A model generated the notes under the pieces. The model was not told where the DNA came from, did not search any database, and saw only the letters and a program-made list of their open reading frames with translations. From the NCBI GenBank assembly GCA_021030905.1, contig JAGFMI010000015.1, positions 62,001 through 126,000 of the forward strand: DNA of 64,000 bases, given 5' to 3'. Origin of the DNA: Pyrenula massariospora (lineage: Eukaryota; Ascomycota; Eurotiomycetes; Pyrenulales; Pyrenulaceae). This document shows, in pieces, positions 20,924-42,326 of the stretch. Numbering within the stretch: position 1 is the stretch's first letter; each line of letters begins with the position of its first letter. A program made the translations under genes and the position numbers.

Positions 20924-23900
20924 TTAAGATGTCACCCCATGAAATGGAATATATGTCGGGCTTATGATGACAGCTTTAATATTCAGATCTCTTACAGTAG
21001 AAGTATCTTTTACCCCGGTCGTGGCACCTCTCTCGATCAGCAGCCGTGCAATACTCTCTCTTTCCTGACTTTTGGCGAGCTGTAATGGCGTCAGGCCATA
21101 GTTGCTTTTTACATCAATATCAGCGCCCCTCTCGATTAGAAGCAGAACAATGGCCTTAAGACCTCTCTGGACGGCAAAAAATAATGCTGTATTGCCATAC
21201 ACATCTATTGCATCAACGTTTGCGCCTTTTTCAAGTAGCAGCTGTACAATACTTTCATTCTCAGTCGCTATGGCTTGTTGTAATGGTGTCACATCATAAG
21301 GACCTTTCGCATCGATATTAGCACCTCTCTCGATTAGAAGCAAAACAATGGCCCTAAACTCCCAATCGACGGCAAGAAATAATGCCGTATAGCCATGCGG
21401 ATCTTTTGCGTCAACGTCTGCGCCTTTATCAAGTAGCAGCTGTACGACACCTTGTCTCTTATCTTTCATAGCTCGCTGTAATGTCGTCATGCGATCATGA
21501 TCTTTCATAGCTCGCAGCAATGGCGTCATGCCATCAAAATCTTTCCTTTCGATATCAGCACCTCTTTCAAGTAGTAGCAGAACAATGGCCTCGGACAACT
21601 GTACGATTGCATAATCTAATGCCCTAGAATGATAATTACCTCTTGCGTCAACGTATGCGCCTTTGTCAAGTAGCAGCCGTGTGGTATTTTCATGCTGGTT
21701 TAACACTGCACATATCAACGGCCTTCGGCCCTCATAGCAGAGTTCGTTCACATCTACGCCACTCTCAAGCAGTAGTTCAACGATGAAATCATTTCCGTAA
21801 GTAGCTGCATGACACAGGAGCTCCAGCTTATTGTTTCTATTGCCTGTTCCGATATGTGCGCCCTGTTCGACCAGTAGCCGCGCAACAGCTTCATGCCCTT
21901 TCTCTAATGCTATCCAAAGTAACGAATGGTGGTTGGCTTGGAGTTCGTTCATGTCTGCGCCATACCTGACGAGCAACCGCACGACAGCTTCATGCCCTTT
22001 TTCGACAGCTATGCGTAGCGGTCTTTTGCCGCAGTAGCAATTATTCCCAGGACTTGCACCATTTTCGAGCAAGAGTCGCACGATGGTGTCGTACCCTTTC
22101 TGTGCTGCAATGCACAATGGCATTTCATTCCCGCCGCCGTTCCCAAAGTCGGCACCTTTCTCGAGCAGCAGTTTTGTCATGGCCTCGTCTCCTCTTCTGG
22201 CTGCTCTGAATAGCGGCGTCTCGCTGTTGTATGTTGTCTCAATATCGACACCTTCCTCGATGAGCAGCCGTTCCATAGCCACATTCTCGCTGCTCATAGC
22301 TAAAGCCAGGAGCGATCTCCCCTCGGAGTCTTTCAACTCAAAATTAAGCTCATTGAAAGCATTCAAAGAGCTCCTCTTCCGCTGCAAGAGAACCTTGACC
22401 GCGTCTACATTTTTATGAGCCACAGCAGCGATTAAAGGGTATGCAAAGCGGCCTCCTGGAGTAATGATCGCAGAGACACGAAGAGGCACTTCACGTAAAA
22501 GCCTCGTCAAGCCCTTGTCCGCAGAGATGTAACAGAGGCTTGCAGTCGACTTGTAATGATGACTTGAGAAATCCTCAAATAGATTGTGACAATAGATCCA
22601 GATGTCCAGAGCAAATGTTTCCAGAAATTCACCTTGCTGTAGTCCGACAGCAGCTTCATTGGCATGATGAAGCACATGATTAGTCGCGTATTCAAGGAAA
22701 GGGAACTTTCTTGAGACAAATTCACCCGGTCTTCGTGCAGTATCAGAAGGCAACTGACTAGACATGTCAATCTTCATGTAAGCATGGCAACACTGCTTTA
22801 GTCGGTCATGAGTTGAGCTGCGCAAATCGTCACCAATATTTGGCCACAATCCGCGTAGACCGTTGCCTCCTACAAGATAATCCCGTACCGATTCGTGGAT
22901 GAATTGGATCGTTCGTGGCGTTTGGGCTCTAAACATTGTGATCTCGGTAGGCCAATCAGAAGGAGCAGTAAAAGTACCTATGCCCTCGTACCTTCTTATC
23001 TCGGCGAGCCCTTTAGAGGCAGAGATGACAAATCTATCCAGCTCTTCTTCAGTGATATTTTCCGGGTCCCACGTGACTAGGTTCTCCGGATCAGAAGCGA
23101 GCTCAGAGACGAGGGCGGCATAAAGCTCTTCGGGCGTTAACGGCCGCTTCGCGAAAAGTATCCACTGGATACATAGCAGCACATCTTCCATGTCCGTACG
23201 ATCCCTCTCTAGAATTTCTCTAAATAAGTCGCTTAGCTTCTCAGGCAGCTCTTGGAGCCTTTTTTGGACCGCAAAGGTTCGGCCGCGACGAAATTCTTTG
23301 TTGAGGATATCGACGACTAACACAACCCATAGAAAAATTCCATTTGCCTTCTTGGTGATCTGGGCTCTGATGTGCTCGATTTTAATTCCCCTCTCAGCTT
23401 GTAAATGGGTTTCTACATATTTTGAAAGATCTTCTTCGTGACCGACCTCATGTTCCAAGGTTAATTGCTGGCTCTTTAGTACGTCAATTGTTGGATAGTG
23501 GCGACTGGAAAAGCATAGGTAGAAGCTGATTCCTTTTTCAATGGCCGTCTGTCCAAGCTCCTCAAAATATGTCACCATGTCTTGAGCTTCCTGCTCATCA
23601 CATTCATCAAGAGCATCAATAAAGCAGGTAAACCGACGCTGACCGAGGTTCGCTACCGCGGAGGAAAAACATCTTTGAAGCAGATCCACTGTCCAAATTG
23701 GGCGTTCAATCCAAGGTTCTATCAAAGCTGGGTCGACCAGCACTTCTTGAAGGTCTGGTAGCTTCTTTAGCAGCTGAAAGAGCAAGGATCGATAGAGTCC
23801 TATTGTCGACCTTTCTACTTCGTATCCCCCAGCATTGAAGAAGAACGAAGCGCAAAACTCGTGCTCGGCAGCCAAACAATGAGCGTTCGTATACAAGAAC

Positions 23901-24407
23901 TTCATGAGTGTTGACTTCCCTGCCCCAGGTTTTCCCTTAATCCATAAGAAGCCTCGATGCTGGGACAATTTCTTAGTATCAAGCCAGTCCATATAGTCAG
24001 CATGTTTCAGTAGCCATTCGCATGTCCTTGAGTATGCGCTTCTGACAGCAGTACGTCGAGAGTCCATCTCATCAAATCTCAAAGTTGCCATTAGGGTTTC
24101 TTGGCGGTTTTGTAGTTGGGTATATTCGTTCCGCTTGTCAACATTTCTGTCACGGTTGTGGGTCACTGACACTAAAATATTGGGTCATCGGACGAGTATG
24201 CTTGCTTTGGGGCGAATCCATACCATTGAAGTCTCGGCCAATAATGGCGTTTCCATTGAAGTCCGAAATACCCCGAACGTCGAAGTAGTCAGGTTCATGG
24301 ATCCAGCCATTGTCAACGTCGGTATCACCACTGCCTGGACATGGCGTCTCTTCACTTTGCCTACGTCTGTGACCGTTGATCTTGCGTCTCTTCTTGGGGC
24401 CCTCCAT
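20924..24407 (-). CDS. NLR-like protein: N-terminal amyloid-type motif, NACHT NTPase, 14 ankyrin repeats
   Basis: Two exons, 24407-24224 and 24171-20924, separated by a 52-nt intron (GTATGG...TTTTAG), give 1143 residues. Order: a basic NLS-like start (PKKRRK, HRRR, residues 4-16); the motif NGNAIIGRDFNV (51-62); the fungal NLR linker ending AVRSAYSRTCEWLL; NACHT with P-loop GKPGAGKST (141-149) and Walker B CFIDALDECDE (about 245); then about 14 ankyrin repeats from residue 630 to 1125. There is no HeLo, lipase or phosphorylase domain at the N-terminus. Fungal NLRs of this type oligomerise on ligand binding and trigger cell death or defence; ankyrins are the likely sensor. The divergent neighbour encodes a PNP-fold protein with the same motif, its likely effector. 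Confidence 0.9.
24170..24278 (-). other. Putative amyloid-type signalling motif in the NLR
   Basis: Residues 44-62 of the NLR, with the pattern V-x-G-x4-G-N-x2-I-G-R-D-x-N-V. The 52-nt intron splits the codon of the last V, so only spliced mRNA joins the motif to the NACHT domain. The Gly/Asn-rich alternation with short hydrophobics is like known NLR amyloid motifs, but I cannot match it to a named family. Confidence 0.5.
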
Positions 24408-24802
24408 TTTGTTTGCTCGGAATTCAGGAAACGGAAGAGGAGCATCTGGGTATATTTGAGGTAGAGAAACAGTTGTGGGATGCCTTGAGCTTCAATTTCT
24501 GTCTAAAACAGTAGCTGGTGGAAAGGTACTACGGATGGCTTCTCATAACATTGGGGTAGCGACGGAACCCCAACACAAGAACAGTCGTCTTTCTCATTCT
24601 AAATGGGGATATTGAAAGTGGTGACAAGGCTTGGTTGCGAGCGGGGCAGGCTGCTAAAATAGCAAATCCTCAGCCTTACTTGTATGTCATGAAATGAACA
24701 ACATTGCCATCCTGAGTTCATGTCATAACTTGATCTTCATTGTGCTATTCTACCCACCCAGGAGGGGCAGGTCTGGTAAACGAACGCGTTAGAGACGGCT
24801 TA

Positions 24803-25981
24803 ATGCCAAACCACCTTTCGCCCGGGCCGAAGCTTCAAGAGAGGCATCACGTAGTTGGTTTCCAGAATGTGAGCGGAAACTTCTCTATTGGAAGAGACAT
24901 AAATGTTGGTATGATGCTACCGAATGTGGAATCTACCCTGTTGCCATTACTGACATGTAACAAAGGAGTATTCGATGAAGGCAGCAAATTTCTCACAGAT
25001 ACCCGCGACGACAGAGAGTATGTTGGAAATGGAAGCAACATTACACACGGAGATGCGCAAGACTATACTGTCGCATTGATCTGCCCTCTGTCGATTGAAC
25101 TGTCTGCAGCGAGGCTGATGTTAGATGAGGAACATGAAATGCTTCGCATAAGAGTCGGAGAGGATGATAATGTATATACTTGCGGTTCGATCAATGGCCA
25201 TAATATTGTCATTGTCAGTCTTCCTCATTGGCACTGCGGACTTATATCCGCTGCGCACGTCATTAATCCTTTGAGTCAAAGTTTCCCAAACCTGCGAATG
25301 ACGCTGTTGGTGGGCATTGGCGGTGGCATTCCACAAAAAGTTTCAGCAGCAAATCCGGTTGACGATGTCCACCTCGGAGATGTGGTCATTGGCTGGAATG
25401 GGGACAAAGAGCCGGCAATAATACATTGGGAAGCACCTAAAAGGATTCTACCTCAGCCGAGTCTTCAGATCTTAAACGCGCTAAGCAAACTTCAATCAAA
25501 TCGTGACCTCGGCCGCACAACGTTTCAAGATCACCTTGAGAAGTGTCTGGACCATCTCTACGCAAAAGCCAAATTTTCTTATCCAGGACTCAAGAACGAT
25601 AAGCTTTTCAACGCGAATTACCACCATGAAAGAGAGCCACTGTCTCCATGCGAAGGCTGCAGACCCGAACAACTCGTCCACCGGCAAAAGCGGAGTTCAA
25701 AAGACTTCCAGCTACATTTCGGGACCATAGCCTGTGTGGACAAAGTCGTCGATGACGCCATAATCAGAGACCGCATCAGAGATGAGGTAATGGCAATCTG
25801 CATTGAAATGGAAGCTGCAGGAGTTCTAGGCAGACAAAATTGTCTCGCTATTCGAGGAATATCCGACTATGCAGATAGCCACAAGAATGACCTGTGGAAA
25901 GGTTACGCGGCTGCAACGGCGGCAGCTGTAGCGCGAGAGATTCTCTGCATTCTGAACCCGCGGGACGTGCGCGACCTGTGA
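24803..25981 (+). CDS. Stand-alone nucleoside phosphorylase-fold (PNP_UDP) protein sharing the NLR's N-terminal motif
   Basis: The frame is open from 24740, but the first in-frame ATG is at 24803, giving 392 residues; a 5' exon ending at the AG near 24770 is possible. Residues 17-35 hold the motif SGNFSIGRDINV. From about residue 88 (DYTVALICPLSIELSAARLM) the sequence is a nucleoside phosphorylase-like domain with GIGGGIP (about 171), HLGDVVIG, the acidic EMEAAGV (about 335) and RGISDYADSHKN-x-LW near the end. In many fungal NLRs this same domain is fused at the N-terminus as the effector. Here it is separate and lies back-to-back with a NACHT-ankyrin gene lacking it. Enzymatic activity (nucleoside or nucleotide cleavage) is inferred from the fold only. 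Confidence 0.85.
   Translation: MPNHLSPGPKLQERHHVVGFQNVSGNFSIGRDINVGMMLPNVESTLLPLLTCNKGVFDEGSKFLTDTRDDREYVGNGSNITHGDAQDYTVALICPLSIELSAARLMLDEEHEMLRIRVGEDDNVYTCGSINGHNIVIVSLPHWHCGLISAAHVINPLSQSFPNLRMTLLVGIGGGIPQKVSAANPVDDVHLGDVVIGWNGDKEPAIIHWEAPKRILPQPSLQILNALSKLQSNRDLGRTTFQDHLEKCLDHLYAKAKFSYPGLKNDKLFNANYHHEREPLSPCEGCRPEQLVHRQKRSSKDFQLHFGTIACVDKVVDDAIIRDRIRDEVMAICIEMEAAGVLGRQNCLAIRGISDYADSHKNDLWKGYAAATAAAVAREILCILNPRDVRDL
24851..24907 (+). other. Putative amyloid-type signalling motif in the PNP-fold protein
   Basis: Residues 17-35 (V-x-G-x4-S-G-N-x2-I-G-R-D-x-N-V). Ten of 19 aligned positions, including GN, IGRD and NV, are identical to the motif in the divergently transcribed NLR. Confidence 0.5.
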
Positions 25982-28183
25982 GATGCGATGAGTCGCCCGG
26001 CCACGAGTTCTAGGGAGCCCTACGGTTCTTAATGTGGCCCTTCGGCCCTGGGGCTCTGGGGGTTCATTTCGGGATCTTTCGGCCCTGTCCCTAGCGAGCC
26101 TCCGCTAATTTAAGCTCCGCCCGTCGAACCGTCCTTGACTACGGACAGTTGGGGCCAAAGCACTCTCAGTGTGATGACAGAGGACTACATCTAAGTTTTC
26201 TGAAGTTGAATTTTTGTCTGGTATATTACGCCAGAATTTTGACGTCGTCCTAGAATCATAACCACCCCTTAAATCGAAATTCTAATGTGGCCAATCTTCC
26301 TGGGTCGGCACATAAAGTTCACCTCGTAAACCCCAATGGAATGTGCTACCCCCGCCGCTGTCTCTTTCGTCGGGGAGGATCTACAATAGTCTTATCGATC
26401 TCATAAGCCCAGTCTAAACCCGAACCGAAATATCTCCTACTCGACGTTCGCCCTCGCCACCGCTCCTTACGTGATCTTTGGCTCCACTAGTAGTCGCCTA
26501 GCGCGGCGACATCGACTCTTGCATCAACTTTTGCCACGTTAGCTGCCCAAATCAAGGGCTTCTCGGACCTTCATAGGCGTTAAGGATCAAATAGGAATAC
26601 TAGAGGCGCAGAAACTTGAAGTTGAGTCTTCGCTAAAGGAGTTGACGTGCCACATTTGCAGCCTATTTTGGTACGTTCGGGCACGCAGAACAACCGTCGC
26701 AACTATTCCTATAATGGTGAATATACCGACGACAATGCGGAGCGTTATGTTAAGATTGAACTTGTTGCCATCAATAGGTGAGCCTTCAGAAGAAAGGTAG
26801 GATTGAGCGGAGCTTGAGACATAGGAGAGTGTTGGTTGGCACCAATTGTCAGAGAGGCTGATGAGGTAGAGGCTAACGAGACAGTGTCTAAATAGGTAAG
26901 AAAGCTAATGAGGAAGGGATTGAGTATGTTTGCTGCTAAGGAGAAGGCTTTAGTACCAGGATCTAGCCTGAACATCGACTTGAAGATATCCTAATGGCCC
27001 TAGTTAAACTCGAAGTCAATGTGTTGTACGCAGGCACGATATCCGCTGAAGTCGCGCTTGGCCCTCAAGTGTCACTTGTGTAGCTATTCTCCGATGAGGC
27101 GGTAGCCGTCTTATTGGCTAAGCAAATGCCATCCAACCAAATCTCTCACTCACAATACGAAGCTCGTTCCCCTATGGTAGCAGGACGACTCGCCGAGGTC
27201 TTTGGCACAGATGCTGGAGCAAATTCCATGATTCCGCACCAAGTTGACATTTCGATATGCCGGTAAAGGTGAGACAAATGCTGAGAATGCGCAGAGAAGG
27301 ACGAAAAACAAGGGGAGGGCTGTGCTGGGAGTGATAGCGCTCGATCACTTCTGGTACACGGCCAATCTTGCACTTTGCTTACCTGTTTCGGGCAGAAGGT
27401 GATACCACTTTACACCGATCGGAGGGTGAGGCCGTCCATATTCAGTCGAATTGTTCAAAAATCATGTGGATAAAGTGTTCCGCCGTCCTTAGCTTGACAC
27501 CTCGATTTCCTCTCTCTTTGCTTGGCCGAACAGATGGAGATAGACTTAGGTTGCCTATTGTAGTTAAATTTGCCTCACCGTTGGGATAAGATCACTGTAA
27601 GAAGGAGCTCGCAAAGTTGACTACTTATATTGTGATGAAGAAACTGAGTGTGGTTTGAATTTGTGGGTTACTGGATTGTTTGTGGATGAAAGAGTTCATT
27701 TTTTATTTATGCTTTCTCCATAGGCGGAAGTAGACGATCAGAGGGTGGAGCGTAAGTCTCCGCCACTCAATTGATCCTGTTTGCAACCAACAGGAGTGCA
27801 AGTTCGACTCCAATTCAAATTTTGTTACTGGGTAGATCGAAAGATGATAAACGAGATAAATTTTGCATTGCTTAGACAGAACTCTGAGGTAGGCCATTGA
27901 TTAGTATTCACGCGCCCGCAACACCTGTAAACCCTGTTGTGGTGACATCTGCCAAGGGAAATCAGGTGTCCCTGAGATGTCTTTCACCCCTGTCGAAATA
28001 CATGTTGGAGAGTGAAGAAGCCTTTGACCACATTTTCATCACAAGATGCTAGATGTCATTTGACATTTGAGTCTTTGATTCAGGGGATCTGCGACCTCAG
28101 ACCAATTTCTAGCTTATGCAAGCTACATCGACCACCTTGGTTCGCCTTATTCTGGAATCGAGCTCCATTTTAATTGCTACAAG
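25982..28183. other. Long intergenic region, possible gene remnants only
   Basis: About 2.2 kb without a supportable gene. A GC-rich stretch lies at 25990-26130. A plus-strand frame near 26578-26800 has a heptad-like segment (DQIGILEAQKLEVESSLKEL), and minus-strand frames at 26745-26975 and 27146-27373 are hydrophobic, but none resolves into a gene. It may contain eroded coding sequence. Confidence 0.4.
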
Positions 28184-29085
28184 ATGGTTGATGTTCTTCC
28201 TCGTGTTCGAGCCTGCATATTTGACGTGGACGGCACACTTATCAACTCGGAAGATGTTTACACTGAAATCTACAACAAGATCCTTAGGTCATATGGAAAG
28301 GACGACTATCCATGGACCGTTAAGGCAGTACAACAAAGTAGAGGAACTGTAGTATGTTTTATCGCAGGCTTTTACCAAGATTTAGCACTCTGACCCCGAA
28401 ACAAGGGTACCCAACGTCTGCTCGCGTGGGCGGACATACCGCACTCCGTGGAAGAATGGCGAACCAAAGAAAAGGCATAGCAAGGAGCCTTCGCCCAATG
28501 CCAAATGCTTCCCGGGGTGATGGACTACCTCAAAAAGATATCGAGCGCTTCACCTCGGATTCACATGGCCCTTGCAAGCTCGGCCAGTAAACGTCTTTTG
28601 ACATCAAGACGACGAAAGTACCAGACCTTCGAACCTTTGTGCCTTCCGAACTACAAATATTTGGCGATGATCCAGATATAGAGGGCCGCGACAATAAACC
28701 TCGTCCACACATATTCAACCTTGCTCTTCGACGCATTAGCAAACGTCTGCACTGCATCCGGACAGCCGAGTGTCAAAAGCGAGTAGTGTCTGGTTTTCGA
28801 AGATTCAATCGCCGGAGTTGAAGCTGGTAGGAGATCGGGCATGCGAGTTGTGTGAATTCCGCTTGAGGGGTTGGCGCAAGTGTGTAGAGGCTACGAACTG
28901 AACGTCCTCATGGGCTTAACGGAGAAAGTCGGTCTACCCTCCGATTTTGGTGACTCGAAGGAGGGAGAACATCGGACACCCATCCCGCTCCGAGAAATAA
29001 TGTAATGTCTAGTGATAGCCATGCAGAGATGATCATGTTCTTAGAGGAATTCTCGCCAGCTAAGTATGGTATCAAAGGGGCAATG
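28184..29085 (+). pseudogene. HAD-superfamily phosphatase pseudogene (pseudouridine-5'-phosphatase-like)
   Basis: Starts with VRACIFDVDGTLINSED, the HAD motif I (D-x-D-G-T). After a probable intron at about 28351-28404 it continues with QRLLAWADIPHSVEEWRTKE, PGVMDYLKKISSASPRIHMA, LASSASKRL (motif II region), FGDDPDIEGRDNKPRPHIF (motif III Lys), LVFEDSIAGVEAGRRSGMRV (motif IV) and KYGI at the end. The blocks lie in different frames. Damage seen: TAG at 28478-28480, a one-base loss near 28589, a frame change near 28760, TGA at 28853-28855 where the family has Trp, and another frame change before about 28990. The order and spacing of all four HAD motifs are kept, so this was a complete gene. Confidence 0.8.
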
Positions 29086-34607: not shown

Positions 34608-35657
34608 CATCGTATCAATCTTGATTTGGGCGGTTATTCCTTTCTGGCATAAGGTTCATATGGAGCAGCTCTTTGTGTTGTTGGGTCTTGCTTTGGTTTT
34701 TGACATCGATGATCGCGGATGCTCCGCGCCAAAGGTTCATAATTTGGGGTTCATACAGCTGGGGATTAATCATCGATACAGTTCAATATTATGATCCCGT
34801 AACTGTTATGATGATTAAGGAAGATGAAGAATAAGGACTAGAAGCAAACCGCCTACACAAGTCGTTTTGCGGTATGTGACGATAAGGTTATAATAATAAC
34901 GGTTTAGTGTCGTGATTAATAACTAAAGTAGTAGATAAAAGGTACTTAATAGCAGGAAACAAATTTTTCGGTGCCAAGTTTTTTGTTACCCGCGTGCCTA
35001 CCCTGTCATACTGCACATGCTAATCCTCTACCTATCCCTTACTAGTCGGTAAATGGCCACTTATAATTTGGGGGCACAGTTCTAGGCGCCCTTGGGCGCG
35101 TGCGGGGTAATATATAAGCTTAAAATATTAAAATAATAAGCTATAAATCCCTATTAATTAGGTTTAAGATCCCGATCCGCGAGTCCGCACGCGCTCGGAG
35201 GCCCTAGAGCTGTACCCCCAAATTATAAGTGGCCATTTACCGACTAGTAAGGGATAGCAACCATAGAAATGAATATCTATCCTTTTCATCGCTCGCGGAT
35301 TCTAAAGCCATTTTGCTAGAGGCTACATCCTAATTATTATGACCATGTGTCTCGGGATAAGGTGCCTAGCTTCCGGGAAAGTCGGAATTGAGGGCAGAGG
35401 GAGGGAGAGGGACATAGGCCTGGTGGTGACCGTAGCATGCAACTCTACAGCAATCCCGGCAATGCTGCAGATGAGCGATATCATCGTGAAAACAGTAATG
35501 TCGCTGAAAGGCTTGGTACCAACCTTCGCGAAATTTACAGTCCTCAATATTAACAAGATTATATTGATGCTTGACCAGTGAGCTTGAGACTCCCAACACG
35601 GCGGACTACTGTCTTCTTGTCCGTCGAAGCATGTTGCTACCAGGAAATGAAATCTAA
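34608..35657. other. Intergenic with MITE
   Basis: AT-rich from about 34790 to 35160. The only defined element is the inverted-repeat MITE at 35035-35254. Frames at 35323-35661 overlap on both strands and are unassigned. Confidence 0.5.
35035..35254. mobile_element. 220-bp MITE with long terminal inverted repeats and TA target duplication
   Basis: The left end (TCCCTTACTAGTCGGTAAAT...) and the right end are near-perfect inverted copies over about 60-75 bp, differing at only a few positions at first and more toward the centre. Both outer ends are flanked by TA (35033-35034 and 35255-35256), the target duplication of Tc1/mariner (Fot1/pogo) transposons. There is no coding capacity inside; the centre is AT-rich. 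It is a non-autonomous element presumably moved by a transposase elsewhere. Confidence 0.85.
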
Positions 35658-37497
35658 TCAATGCTCTGGGCCTAACTGAAGATCCTCTGGCCGCAAGCCG
35701 AAGCCATGCTGTAGTTCCTGCTCAAGCGGATATACGATGTCCTCGTATACTTGCTCACTGATCTTTTCGCTATCGAGGCCGATGTTACTTGCCAAAATTT
35801 GGTCATACTCGAGGCAGGCCTTAATTGCCCTGCGATAGCCCATAGGTTGGTCTCCCTCCGAATCTTGCAGCAAACGATAAGCAGTTGTCAAATTTGTGTG
35901 CTCATTTGGCTGTCCGTCGTCTGCCAGGTCCTCTTGCGACCAGCGGGACTCGATAGGTTCGCTCAAGTAGATTTCTAGGAGTAAGATTCCCAAAGACATA
36001 AGTGCCAGGGAAGGCTGTTCGTTGAGTAGATTTGCATCTCCTATTGCGCTAGAAGGCTTGTGGTTAAAGTTGACGGCGAGATACGGTCGGCCGAGATCTG
36101 GCCCTCCTGAGGATTCCTTTTCAAAGAACGATACATGCTCTTTGCTCCAGTCATTACAGAGCCAGGGACTGTTGGAGCAATGCAGAGCAGCATGAGCAAG
36201 TATTACAGCAAGTGTCCACTTGTCTTTCAATTTGAGTTGTCGTGAGGGACCACGAAGTAGGCCTTTTAATGGTATGTCGTTCTGGCCTCGTAGCAGCAAG
36301 CTCCTCCTCCGGGACCGCGTCTGCCAGAGCTTTCCCCGTTCAAAAACCATTCTCAGATTTATGCCTCTCCTATGAGACTGAGTAATCAAGGTGCATAACG
36401 ATTCAGCATCAACATCTTTTCCGGGAATGCTCGGGGAAGACGGGTTTGGCACATCTTTGCTACTGACGACAAAATGTACTTCTTTTCGGGTCGCAGTCTG
36501 ATCGCTATTCCTGGAGAAGTTCGTTAGTCATGTTCCTCCAGAAACATGTCCCTGCATGCTCTAGCCGAGAAAACATACTGGTTGGAGGAGACGAGCATAG
36601 TGCTTTCCTGCCAGGTTGTGACGTCTTCGTCAACATTTGGCACCGATACGACCATGTCAAGGCTATCATCAGACTCTGGGTGGCGTTGAGTCGAACAGCA
36701 GTTCCAAAGACAAAGGCGCGCTTGATGTTCACATTTACAGTCACAGGAAGTGGGCCACTTGCCAGCCATCTTGTGGTATAGGCGGATCGAGAATCTCCGA
36801 GTCCTCGTTGATGGAGTTCCATCCTTCTTCAGATAAAGTTGCTCATCGTCACTTGGAGGTCTTAGTAATAGTGAGCCTTGAAGCAGACGCTCCAGCTTCT
36901 TGTTGCCGTCAATTATCCTGAGCATTGCAACCTTACGAGTACGTTCATTTTTGGTGAATCGAAAGCGGCTCCATAGAGCCTGTTCTGTCTCCCCATTCTC
37001 GACGGCCAACTTGAATGTTTCGAGCTTGGCGAACATTGCGTCCGGGAATTGCTAGTACAAGTTAGCTTTCAGCCTATCGGGGTAAATGGAGTACTCACAG
37101 TATCTGATTCTGTGAGAGCGAGCGACTTGTCGCTCACAACATTTTCCACACTTTTGAGCAGCCGTTCAAGGATGCTTCTGAATGGCTCATAGTTGAGCCC
37201 GAGCGCTATCTTAAGCGTGTCGTCTATTTTTCCGTTTGTATGCCGAGACCACTTAACGATCAAGGGCATTGCTTCCGAATGATCCCGCAGCGAGGGTACG
37301 TTGTTGATGAGTCTCTGCAGGTTGCTTGCTAGCAAGGAAAGCTCCTCATACAACTCATAGTAGAAGCTGAGTTGCTGGTCATTCTTCGCCTTGTTTGATG
37401 TGATGGTCTGGAGCTTGTCCTTGATATTGTGCTCGGCTGCGGAAATAACCAGCGGCAGAACCGCCAAAGCTAACCCCCCTATCTCAATACCAGACAT
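35658..37497 (-). CDS. Fungal DUF7580-type protein
   Basis: Three exons: 37497-37099, 37051-36579 and 36510-35658 (introns 47 and 68 nt), giving 574 residues. It begins MSGIEIGGLALAVLPLVISA, a hydrophobic helix that opens many fungal DUF7580-like proteins. A helical region follows (EELSLLASNLQRLIN). The C-terminal domain carries the typical blocks KWTLAVILAHAALHCSNSPW, RPYLAVNF, LALMSLGILLLEIYLSEPIE and IVYPLEQELQHGFG. The C-terminal domain has the look of a pseudokinase-like fold, but that is inference. It is head-to-head with the NB-ARC/TPR gene, 362 bp between start codons, so the two may share a promoter. Function unknown; relatives occur near incompatibility and NLR loci. Confidence 0.85.
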
Positions 37498-37859
37498 CGC
37501 TGCCTCGGAAGTCGAGATACCAGCCGATCTACTCGCAAGCAAGAGACGGGAGGCTGAGGAATCTGACACCGGAAAAGTAGGACGAGCCTCTTCGTTAAGT
37601 ACCTGCGATGCCTGGCAGCCTTGCGTTACACAGGGCGCCCCCAAGGCGTTTCGTACCCCGCCTAGCTGACAAGTGATCCAACCAATGCTGGACGAGAGCA
37701 TAATCATTTTGGCGCAATGAGGCTGTGGGCTTCGGACGGGAACATGGGTGACACTGAGCCTTTGCTTTTGAATCCAAAATGTTCGTATTTGCCTTGCTCC
37801 TCTAATTTCTAAACTTCGAGGCTCTCTCTTCTTCCAATGTTGCGTTGCTGCTGATCATC

Positions 37860-40800
37860 ATGGCTCCTGGGGACATATGTGTACAAGCGCGCGAATGTCT
37901 TGAAACTTTCGATCTCCTGCTTAGGATCGAAGTACAAGTAAGAGAAAGTGGCAAGGCTAAATACTTGCAGCCCGATGAGCTCAGGACAGATGATCAGCTT
38001 GCCAGATTTCGGATGTGGGCAGGCAATATTGGTGCATTCGCTGGCGGACATGCATCTTTAGATTACCGTCTGCGAGATAACGATGACGCGAAGAGGGTAA
38101 TGAACAGATTCCTGGAGAGCTTAAGAGATTCTCTTCGAAGGGGTAGGATTTTGCCGGCTCACGACTTGAGAAAAATAGCTAATTGCTCACGCGACAGCTC
38201 TGGAAGCTTTACCTGATTCAAGTAATTTTTCGGAGGTAGATCTATTGTCGCAAGACCCTGCCCAGGAGAACTTGGTGGACACAGCTGAAGACTCAGTCTC
38301 TTCTCAAATATCGTCATCGTTTCAAGGTACGGACACCGACTCTATTCAAGATCTATTACTCGGTTCATCGCTTCAAAATCCGTTCGAGCGACATTTGCAA
38401 GAAGTCGAGCGAACCATTGACCGATTGTATCGTCTTTCGGTGCTGATACGACAGCCATCGATCACGAATCAGAATAGCAAGGCCGAGAAATTTGTTATCA
38501 CTGATGAAGAAGGCAATGACATCAATGAAAGCTTTGCAGACTTTTCATTTCAGATCCTTACGCATCGATTTCCAGAAGCTCCTAAGCAATTGAGGCAGAG
38601 GCTAGCAAGAGGAGTAACAGTCCGAAGGAGACGGTTCCAGTACCGTAGAAGCCATCAAAGCAAATTGAGTGCCCGAGAAAGTGTGATTCCGTCTCAGAAT
38701 CTGCGAGACACGTCCGAAATAGATTCTACGGTCAGAAGCTTTGGAGATCTTGTGCAGAGCCCAGTACAGGAACACGGTCACCAGCCACGAGGATCTCCGA
38801 ATCTGCGATTGCCCTCGCTGACATCTGCATCTGCGATGACCAAACGGCCAATTCCGATTGAAAAGATCACGGAGGATGACGCATCAAAGCAATCCACCGT
38901 CTTTACGATGGCCTTTACTCAAGACACACCCGTGTCGATTCCCGGGCCTCCGAAACCAGCCCCAGGTAGCAAAGAGTTCGAATGCCCTTATTGCTGCATC
39001 TTTTTACCAATAAACCAGGCGAAAGCCTCACATTGGAGGTGAGATTTATAGTTCACGAAGATTATAGCTTGAATTAATAAGATCATCGTAGGAAGCACGT
39101 CCTCAACGATCTGGAGCCCTACTCATGCGTCTTTGAGAATTGTCCGATGGACGATGCGCTTTTTCGAGATTATCGAGGTTGGAACGCACACATGAAGAAG
39201 ACTCATGCAAGCAGATGGATTTGTACTATGACCGGCCATGAGCCATGTACATTTGACAACGAACAAGCTTATGAAGATCACATGCGGGCAGCACATCATG
39301 GTACTTTCACGGAGTCACAATTACCTGTGCTGAAGAGGCGAAGCAAGACTCCTGGCATTGTCCTATTTGAAGAGTGCCCCCTGTGTGGATTCAAGCCTTC
39401 TGAAAATGACGTGAAGAAAACAGTCGAGAATCGCGGCTTGGGGGAAAGAAGAGAAGTGGCGGCAGAAATCGCTTCAGATCTTATCACCAAACATCTTGCT
39501 GGGCATCTAGAATCTGTGTCCGTGAGGGCATTGCCTTGGCAAGAAGTCACGGAAGATTCAAAGAGTGAGAGTACCTTATCCAAGAATTCTAAACAAGCGG
39601 AGGAGGGTAGTGGCGTCAGCGAAGACGATGTTTCGCTTAATTTCGAGGATCCAGCGCCGCGTTTGTCCCAGTCTTCGAAAGAGACAACCACCTGGCCAGA
39701 TGCAGATGGTGACATATTGATCGACTCATCAATTACTTCCTATGAACAAGACTACGAACATGACTGGGGATTCATTCCCTTGTCTCCCTACTATGGCCAT
39801 GACAGAGACCCAATACTACAAACTTTACTCCGAAAGCTCTACTTGGGCACCTCCTCTCCTGCTGTTCATGGCCTTGGCCCGCAGCTTCCTGCTTTCTCCG
39901 TTCCAGTGGATCGCGACAAGAATTTTGTTGGTCGAGAGTTTGCGTTGAACGCAATGAGGGATGCTCTTTGTCCTAGCGATCTCACTGCTCCGGAGGCCAG
40001 CAAGCCGCCGACTTTTCCGAGATGCTTCACAATTTATGGTCCAGGAGGACTGGGTAAAACTCAGGTGGCTGCTCAATTTGTGGTAACACACCGCCAGGAT
40101 TTTGACGCAGTGCTTTGGGTCCACGCAGAAAACTCTTCCAAAATTGCACAAGACTTTCAGACCATTGCTATTTCTCTTGGACTCGTTTTTGAAGATTCGG
40201 TGGATGCCACTGATTTGACTTTTACTCGAAATGTTGTCAAGAGATGGCTTGTGAACCCTGTCAAGAGAACAGCTGGCAGTGGCTCGCGATCGCCTAAGAA
40301 AGCCTCTTGGCTAATGATTTTTGACGGAGTGGAAGAACCCGATGATTTGAACGAATTTTGGCCTTACGACGGCCCTGGCTCTATCTTGATTACAAGCCGC
40401 AGCCCATACTCCTGGTCTGCATCACTGCAGCTTCGACCTTTTTCCGCAGACGAGGCGACGACTTATCTTTTGCAGGCTACAGGGAGAGTTCCTGAGGAGA
40501 AAGAGGAGCTGGCTGTAAAGACCATAGCCGCTCGTCTCGGTGGACTTCCCCTAGCTCTCGCCCAAATGGGAAGCATTATTGTACACAAAGGACTGTCGTT
40601 CACCCAGTTCCTCGGTCTATACGACGAGAAGGAAAGTCATCAACAGCTGTTGAACTGGCAGGTATTAGATGCGCGTCCGCAAATATCAAATTATGAGCAC
40701 AACATTGCTTCGGTCTGGGCTTTTGACAGTCTTGCTCAGAGCGGAACACTGCTCAATATACTTTCCATGTTAGACGCGGACGGAGTGCCTGAAAAGATTT

Positions 40801-42326
40801 TTCTTCGTGATGATAGCGAGAACAGATTGCCTGAAGTTCTGTCCCAAAGCGCGTACAAAAAGGCGAGAAAGGAGCTGTTGGCGCGCTCTCTGGTGACCGG
40901 CAACAAACACGAGAAGAAATTGTTCATTCACAGGCTTGTTCAGGATGTTGCGCGAGCACGAATGCGCCCGTTAGAGCTTCGTGCGACTTTTCACTTGTGT
41001 GTCAAGCTTCTCTTTGCAAGTTGGCCTTTTGAAAAATTCACCTGGCGTCAAGGTGTTGCTCGATGGGCTGCTTGCGACGAGCTATTTACACACGTTCAGA
41101 AACTTAAAGACCTGCATCCAGAAATCACTCACTCCGCACACACCCTCGAAGACTACGAATTTGCAAAGCTTTTGGTCGACGTGGGATGGTCAGCTCTTTT
41201 CTCTTCATGGTGAAACTGTATTGCTAACTCCTACAGGTATCGCTACGAACGTGGGAAATTTATAGACGTAGTACACATCAACAATATGGCTCAGTCAATC
41301 TGTGAATCACTGAAGCTACAAATACTCGAACACCCAGAGTCCTTGGATGGAAAAGTAACGCTAGAGCAACTGAATTATGCTCTCAACGAGCTCAATCACA
41401 ACAGGGGCTGCACTGCACTCGCTACTAATGAGATACAAGACACGCTGAGATATCTGAAGTTGTTCAATACTATGATGGTAAGAGAATTCAAAGATAAATC
41501 GCCTTCCAATGACATGCGGCTTGCGATATCTTGGAATGAGGTGGGCAATGCATATATGCTCGATCACGATTGGGCGAAAGGCGAACAAGCCTTTGTCAAT
41601 TCGATAGAGGAGATGAAGAAGCTCACAAATTTTACTTCTGCATTACTCTCTTTGCCTGTCGCGAACCTCGGCCTTGCGTACTGGTTCCAAAATGAGAACG
41701 ACAAGGCGATCGAAACTCTGATGCAAGGTCTTCAGGATCGTGAAGCAGCCTTTGGTGTCGACGACCGGAGTTCATTCATGTAAGTGTTTGATTTGGAAGC
41801 AGCTGAAAATCAAAGTAATTAGAGCCTTGTTACTAATTGAGATCTTTCTCACAACAACAGAACCGGCCGTCTACTTCACGCCATCGGGAACGTCAGAAAC
41901 AGCCAAGGTCTTTTCGACGAGAGCCACGATTACCATCGCCGCGCCTTGCTTCTCTACAAGTCGACCTTGGGCAACCGCCACCACCGTACCGCAGACGTCT
42001 TTGTGAAAGTCGCCGAGCACAATATCCGCCTTGACCAGCACGAGATGGCTATCGCGCTACTCGACCGCGCCATCGAGGCCTACTCATACTCGAGCAGTTT
42101 TATTCTCGAGAAGGCTCGAACGTCGTTCAAGAGGATCAAAGCGTTGCGGTCGCTGAACAAGGTAGAAGAGGCAGAGTCGGAGTTGCAGAAGTGCTTCAAG
42201 ATTTATACCATGATATTCAATGATCGGGTGAGGGAGGGGAGGGTTAAAGAGAGTGCAAGGAAGACGAGGGCAGAGGATCTGAGAGATGTGGATTTCGATG
42301 AGTTGATGGTCTTTTGGTCTAGATAG
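37860..42326 (+). CDS. NLR-like protein with zinc-finger-like region, NB-ARC ATPase and TPR repeats
   Basis: Five exons: 37860-38142, 38198-39038, 39092-41188, 41237-41779 and 41861-42326 (introns 55, 53, 48 and 81 nt), giving 1409 residues. The N-terminus (CLETFDLLLRI...RMWAGNIGAFAGGHASLDYR) is the helical domain common in fungal C2H2/NACHT-type proteins. A C2H2-like block follows (FECPYCCIF, HWRKHVLNDL, CVFENCP, HMKKTH, about residues 355-440). NB-ARC has P-loop YGPGGLGKTQ (about 690), the Walker B region SWLMIFDGVEE and the GLPLALAQMG motif (about 860). TPR-like helices fill the last ~350 residues (GNAYMLDHDWAKGEQAF, IRLDQHEMAIALLDRAI). Such proteins are STAND ATPase receptors that switch by oligomerisation. 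Exon 3 uses the weak donor GTCAGC. It is head-to-head with a DUF7580 gene. Confidence 0.9.

Follow-up and report, generated by a model that had tools for sequence, protein, structure and literature searches.

Does the divergent gene pair at 24.2–26.0 kb of the window, formed by a NACHT-ankyrin NLR on the minus strand and a stand-alone PNP-fold gene on the plus strand, encode a receptor together with its effector, and are the two proteins connected through the short motif that their N-termini share? By the window we mean the whole stretch of 64,000 nucleotides that was analyzed (G000:C6:62001-126000), which belongs to a fungal genome of 37.8 Mb. The original prediction had considered a PNP-fold effector in an NLR pair to be possibly undescribed. 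This does not hold, because the available part of Wojciechowski et al. 2022 (PMC9815663) already reports PNP_UDP effectors that are paired with NLRs via the motif PUASM, via an HRAM3-like motif and via the rare motif PF01048_015 (four pairs). According to the same part of that paper, PUASM peptides were tested for fibres in vitro and the effector-side PUASM was prion-tested in Podospora. The pair screen described there compared effector C-termini with NLR N-termini, and because it was limited to the effector C-termini, it would not have detected pairs whose effector carries the motif at the N-terminus. PUASM 1-2 are also mentioned in PMC12261475.

Results and Discussion

The start codons of the two genes are separated by 395 bp of common intergenic region (24408..24802). 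Exon 1 of the NLR (24224..24407, minus strand) begins with the ATG at 24407, has the protein start MEGPKKRRK... and provides residues 1–61 plus the first base of codon 62. Its initial basic stretch MEGPKKRRKINGHRRR resembles a nuclear localization signal. A predicted intron of 52 nt (24172..24223, minus strand, GTATGG...TTTTAG) leads into exon 2 (20924..24171, minus strand), which encodes the NACHT-type domain and the ankyrin repeats through to the stop codon, so that the predicted gene model gives a spliced protein of 1143 aa. The exact splice between the two exons is a prediction: another acceptor lies 6 nt beyond the first and is likewise open, and under the rules used there are five open choices in total, of which the two with donor 24271 would delete the motif. 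This alternative donor (GTATTT; 24172-24271) leaves the NLR frame open, and a motif-less receptor could arise by alternative splicing at this site. A coding start farther upstream than exon 2 is supported by the comparison with the NLR frame of locus L027: the exon 2 frame is already similar to it from residue 11 onward, and the first Met of the exon 2 frame comes 21 residues later. The NPHP3_N/NACHT nucleotide-binding domain is located at 23501..24025 (minus strand; NPHP3_N 6.7e-32) with the P-loop GKPGAGKS at 23912-23935, and the ankyrin repeat region, the presumed sensor, has the approximate limits 20993..22228 (minus strand). Profile scans agree with the original prediction that the NLR has no recognizable effector domain at its N-terminus. 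Within the ankyrin region, a 198-nt unit is present in 1.9 copies (21112-21483, 79% match), suggesting repeat turnover in the NLR sensor.

The candidate effector on the plus strand is a single-exon gene (24803..25981; first ATG at 24803, stop codon ending at 25981) for a protein of 392 aa. By eye, a 5′ UTR intron is possible at 24682-24761; a longer N-terminus via an upstream exon was considered and rejected, as this possible intron puts a stop codon in frame (by eye). With 25.0 bits the protein falls just below the cut-off of the PNP_UDP_1 profile (25.1), which 4/6 of its full-length paralogues exceed. The NCBIfam MTAN model PRK05584 matches with 6e-10, yet far below its cut-off, and PADLOC assigns PDC-M60C (2.5e-11) and a PN-superfamily effector model (2.4e-9). 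An AlphaFold2 model, calculated from an alignment with 16 bacterial relatives, has a mean pLDDT of 73.0 and is mostly confident for the domain after residue 79; Foldseek ranks futalosine hydrolase (E 1.1e-11) and MTAN (E 1.4e-11) at the top. Judged by profile score and modelled fold, the protein belongs to the PNP_UDP_1 superfamily, as had been read from the sequence before.

Its PNP/MTAN-like nucleosidase domain (25058..25978, plus strand) contains GIGGG (25313-25327), EMEAA (25805-25819) and ISDYAD (25859-25876), and the protein terminates with this domain. EMEA and SDxAD align with those of MTAN 4jos (E 0.0076 for the whole match), and the residues E250, M251, E252, D270 and D273 are invariant across seven aligned PNP domains. 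In MTAN, the Glu of EMEA binds ribose and the Asp of SDxAD is catalytic; by the alignment, the protein retains both the MTAN-type Glu and Asp. Ahead of the domain lies an N-terminal extension of 85 residues (24803..25057, plus strand), which carries the motif and is probably disordered, given the pLDDT of below 50 that the model assigns to residues 1–79.

The strongest support for a receptor-effector reading comes from the comparison with the paralogues in the same genome. When its own genome was searched for the PNP protein, eight matches were obtained, namely the protein itself, six full-length paralogues (38-63% identity) and one fragment. All six full-length paralogues lie directly 5′ of, and on the same strand as, an NLR frame above cut-off, which is of the NPHP3_N type in L017, L019, L021 and L022 and of the NB-ARC type in L018 and L020. 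In-frame PNP-NLR bridges by a single intron with a GTNNG donor were found for four of the six, while the other two bridge under looser rules only, which yield many candidates. The paralogues are therefore likely PNP-NLR fusions. From the first Met to the PNP domain they have 4–13 residues, compared to 85 in the window copy, which among these PNP copies is the only one with such an extension and has no fused NLR. Two further PNP_UDP_1 matches in the genome (on C3 and C13), missed by the protein query, were included in the motif scan described below. On the receptor side, different domains occupy the N-terminus in the closest relatives of the NLR: a PNP frame in L022/L027 (40% identity) and a HET domain in L026 (43% identity; HET 6.3e-10). 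Because of the paralogues next to NLRs, their short N-termini and the other N-terminal domains of the NLR relatives, the pair in the window looks like a PNP-NLR fusion that was split into receptor and effector, with the motif in place of the covalent link. By the same in-genome comparison, a receptor-effector relation of the two proteins is likely. The fused PNP_UDP-NACHT/NB-ARC NLRs, with six likely examples in this genome, share the effector family with our pair, but there receptor and effector are apparently one polypeptide, and a motif extension is missing.

The motif itself is found in frame in both proteins and close to both N-termini, just as first reported. On the effector side, SGNFSIGRDINV (24872..24907, plus strand) forms residues 24–35 of 392; on the receptor side, NGNAIIGRDFN(V) (24224..24257, minus strand) forms residues 51–62 of 1143 (NGNAIIGRDFNV), with the final Val codon straddling the predicted intron and finished at 24170-24171. 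The complete matched stretch, which starts at 24851 in the PNP gene, comprises NLR residues 44–62 (VRGISDFNGNAIIGRDFNV) and PNP residues 17–35 (VVGFQNVSGNFSIGRDINV), and 10 of its 19 positions are identical. By eye, the NLR reads NRDRNV (24140-24157) ten residues past RDFNV, possibly a degenerate second repeat. Pfam assigns no family to the motif stretch of either protein.

How does this motif, which we write as GNxxIGRDxNV, relate to the known ones? Two features of amyloid-signalling pairs are present, because an NLR without an effector domain is adjacent to an effector protein and both carry the same short motif; the third, an effector copy at the C-terminus, is replaced here by an N-terminal copy. 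The PUASM pairs, as described in the available part of PMC9815663, are alike in that the genes are adjacent, the NLR has a short N-terminal motif without an effector domain and the PNP_UDP effector carries the same motif. They differ in the C-terminal position of the effector motif and in the NLRs, which are NACHT or NACHT-WD40 there and NACHT-ankyrin here. The PUASM pattern FxGxGxQxxGxGxF is matched at no more than two of its seven fixed positions in either sequence, and the core NxGxQxGxN of the PP motif at no more than two of five; the PP/RHIM-like and sigma systems resemble the pair in that their gene clusters contain motif copies on both the NLR and the effector side. In NWD2/HET-S and the HRAM pairs (PMC4518210, PMC5485727), a receptor N-terminal motif is likewise matched by the adjacent effector and amyloid templating follows, but the effectors are HeLo-type and their 21-residue motif is C-terminal and doubled. 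Scored against the HRAM pattern (21 residues; G19, hydrophobic 5/8/10/16/18, K/R 15, N/Q/H 3), the NLR reaches at best 4/8 and the PNP protein 5/8, both without G19; the registers with G19 give 3/8 and 4/8 and are different in the two sequences. Neither N-terminus has a HET-S, NACHT_sigma or Ses_B match in Pfam, nor does NACHT_sigma (PF17106) match anywhere in the genome, although in both cases HMMER filters can lose short motifs. The four exact motif peptide strings were not found in the literature text searched. The motif may hence be new: text patterns set it apart from PUASM, PP and HRAM, while PF01048_015, a rare PNP_UDP-associated motif in NLR pairs, located at effector C-termini in the available description, could be the same motif. 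The N-terminal placement on the effector is a difference from the published pairs, as far as the available text of PMC9815663 describes them. That the motif family and the N-terminal placement on a PNP effector are both new, and that the module stems from a split PNP-NLR fusion, is a tentative combination that we would rate slightly on the doubtful side.

Taken together, we consider it fairly probable that the two genes form an NLR/effector module which is wired by amyloid templating of the shared motif. What we observe is the layout of the genes, the motif they share, the conserved catalytic residues and the paralogues next to NLRs; for the dynamic steps we infer the following course. The ankyrin repeats would sense a ligand. 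Oligomerization of the NACHT domain is established for NLRs, and here it would cluster the N-terminal GNxxIGRDxNV segments of the receptor, which could then fold into a beta-arch amyloid seed. This seed would template the matching segment in the disordered extension of the PNP-fold protein, so that the nucleosidase domains are brought together and switched on. The enzyme would probably cleave an adenine nucleotide such as ATP, which is named as a substrate of PNP_UDP immune effectors in the available parts of two reviews (PMC10197012, PMC12881547) that cite other work for it. As the outcome, cells would die or stop growing as part of a response to non-self or to viruses. An older reading, given in the available part of PMC4986451, assigns MTA/SAH nucleosidase activity towards bacterial signals to the PNP domains of fungal NLRs, and it counts against this explanation. 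So does the fact that the NLR copy of the motif hinges on a predicted splice which is lost in two of the five open models. Another warning against N-terminal effector motifs is that, in the available part of PMC9815663, PUASM placed ahead of GFP or RFP gave no foci, while the C-terminal motif fusion did. Amyloid signalling as such probably exists in this fungus, since one PP-type motif exceeds the Ses_B cut-off. The Ses_B scan of the genome gave three matches in total, of which this is the only one above cut-off (G000:C8:648662-648727); a weaker one (C8:148497-148541) has an NLR match (C8:145808-146629) at a distance of about 2 kb. Scanning the genome with the HET-S profile gave one sub-threshold match.

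Could the likeness simply be one of chance between two disordered N-termini, so that the neighboring genes are not wired through this stretch at all? The match is short, and all statistics given here assume the pair as given, although it was picked by a reader from among many genes. A BLASTP comparison of the two sequences gave E = 5e-4, and the ungapped score of the real pair, 48, was reached by only 5 of 20,000 shuffled pairs, with a Gumbel tail of 4e-4. Among 138 real N-termini from the fetched loci of this genome, none matched either partner as well, the maximum being 38 for each. When real N-termini were paired at random, 210 of 20,000 pairs scored at least 48, a figure that favors chance but deserves little weight, because the unfiltered set still contains homologous ORFs and overlapping loci. 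In leave-one-out scans with a single motif, the partner was the top non-self match each way with a score of 43, followed by runners-up of 26 and 35, the latter an unrelated hit inside the NACHT region of L047. These scans covered 587,880 six-frame residues, made up of the window and the fetched loci (some of which overlap each other) minus five that overlap the pair. By standard ungapped statistics we estimate that one or two matches of 43 are expected by chance in 588,000 residues. The weight therefore falls on the location of the match in the N-termini of two adjacent and functionally plausible partners, a receptor and the effector type expected for it, while the paralogues have no such extension. 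We thus regard the shared motif as probably real and coincidence as improbable.

The divergent orientation and the position of both copies close to the start codons would also fit a functionless relic, left when the intergenic 5′ region was duplicated in inverted orientation. At the nucleotide level, identity amounts to 34/57 in the motif and falls to 27/100 and 21/100 in the unrelated flanks, and four of the ten identical residues are encoded by different codons. These values make a recent DNA duplication unlikely as the source of the match, and we give the relic hardly any credence. A different case is a short homotypic docking segment of non-amyloid nature, which would recruit the PNP protein by ordinary strand pairing or with a third protein as intermediary, with no templating and no prion state. 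The same data fit such a segment, and the motif follows none of the published amyloid patterns among PUASM, PP and HRAM. Against it speaks that fungal NLR/effector pairs of this layout use amyloid motifs in the published work available to us, and that the Gly/Asn turns and short hydrophobic strands of the motif would suit a beta-arch. We consider docking unlikely, but it is an alternative that deserves to be kept in mind, and amyloid templating is the reading we prefer.

Further copies of the motif were sought in several places. A protein search of the own genome returned for the PNP motif and for the NLR exon only the respective query itself; because this method misses even the known partner, the absence of other matches there means little. 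The scan of the fetched loci is the more telling negative: it covered 29 NLR loci besides that of the window, out of 90 match rows, and gave no third copy. Nor was the motif found in 52 bacterial PNP relatives (ORFs of at least 60 aa; best score 23.5). The viral contigs contained no relative, and the plasmids gave one weak unrelated match (E = 8).

If amyloid templating holds, effector amyloid motifs can occupy either end of the protein. The published count of pairs would then be an underestimate, and the N-termini of stand-alone effectors would merit rescanning. Moreover, a single receptor-effector family apparently exists in this genome in both fused and split form, a natural comparison that makes it testable what amyloid wiring adds to direct fusion.

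A parallel is found in actinobacteria, where the tail motif of PNP/MTAN-like proteins (L074–L104), often similar to VGIQAxxIHGxVY, appears again where the next downstream frame begins (for instance L085:3391 and 3753; L095:3376 and 3726). Such a recurrence was seen in 18 of the 31 testable loci (52 in total) at p ≤ 0.004 versus 500 shuffled tails, with the reservation that the loci are kin and so dependent, and that shuffling against the already chosen frame alone flatters p. In the two loci scanned, the downstream frame encodes a protein of about 650 residues without a Pfam or PADLOC match, and none of the titles listed by a literature search concerned an actinobacterial PNP tail motif. This suggests that PNP effectors elsewhere may also be joined to a neighbor by a short shared motif, and it supports the general logic, not GNxxIGRDxNV itself.

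Elsewhere in the window, a DUF7580 gene on the minus strand has as its neighbor, probably in divergent orientation, a plus-strand gene that encodes NB-ARC and DUF7779 (35323-42326 for the two) and in which zinc-finger and TPR parts can be recognized by eye; this is a possible second receptor-effector neighborhood. Finally, a frame at 28079-28393 (IFDVDGTLINSED...), labeled by eye as HAD-hydrolase-like, ends after about 100 residues and is either split by an intron or decayed.
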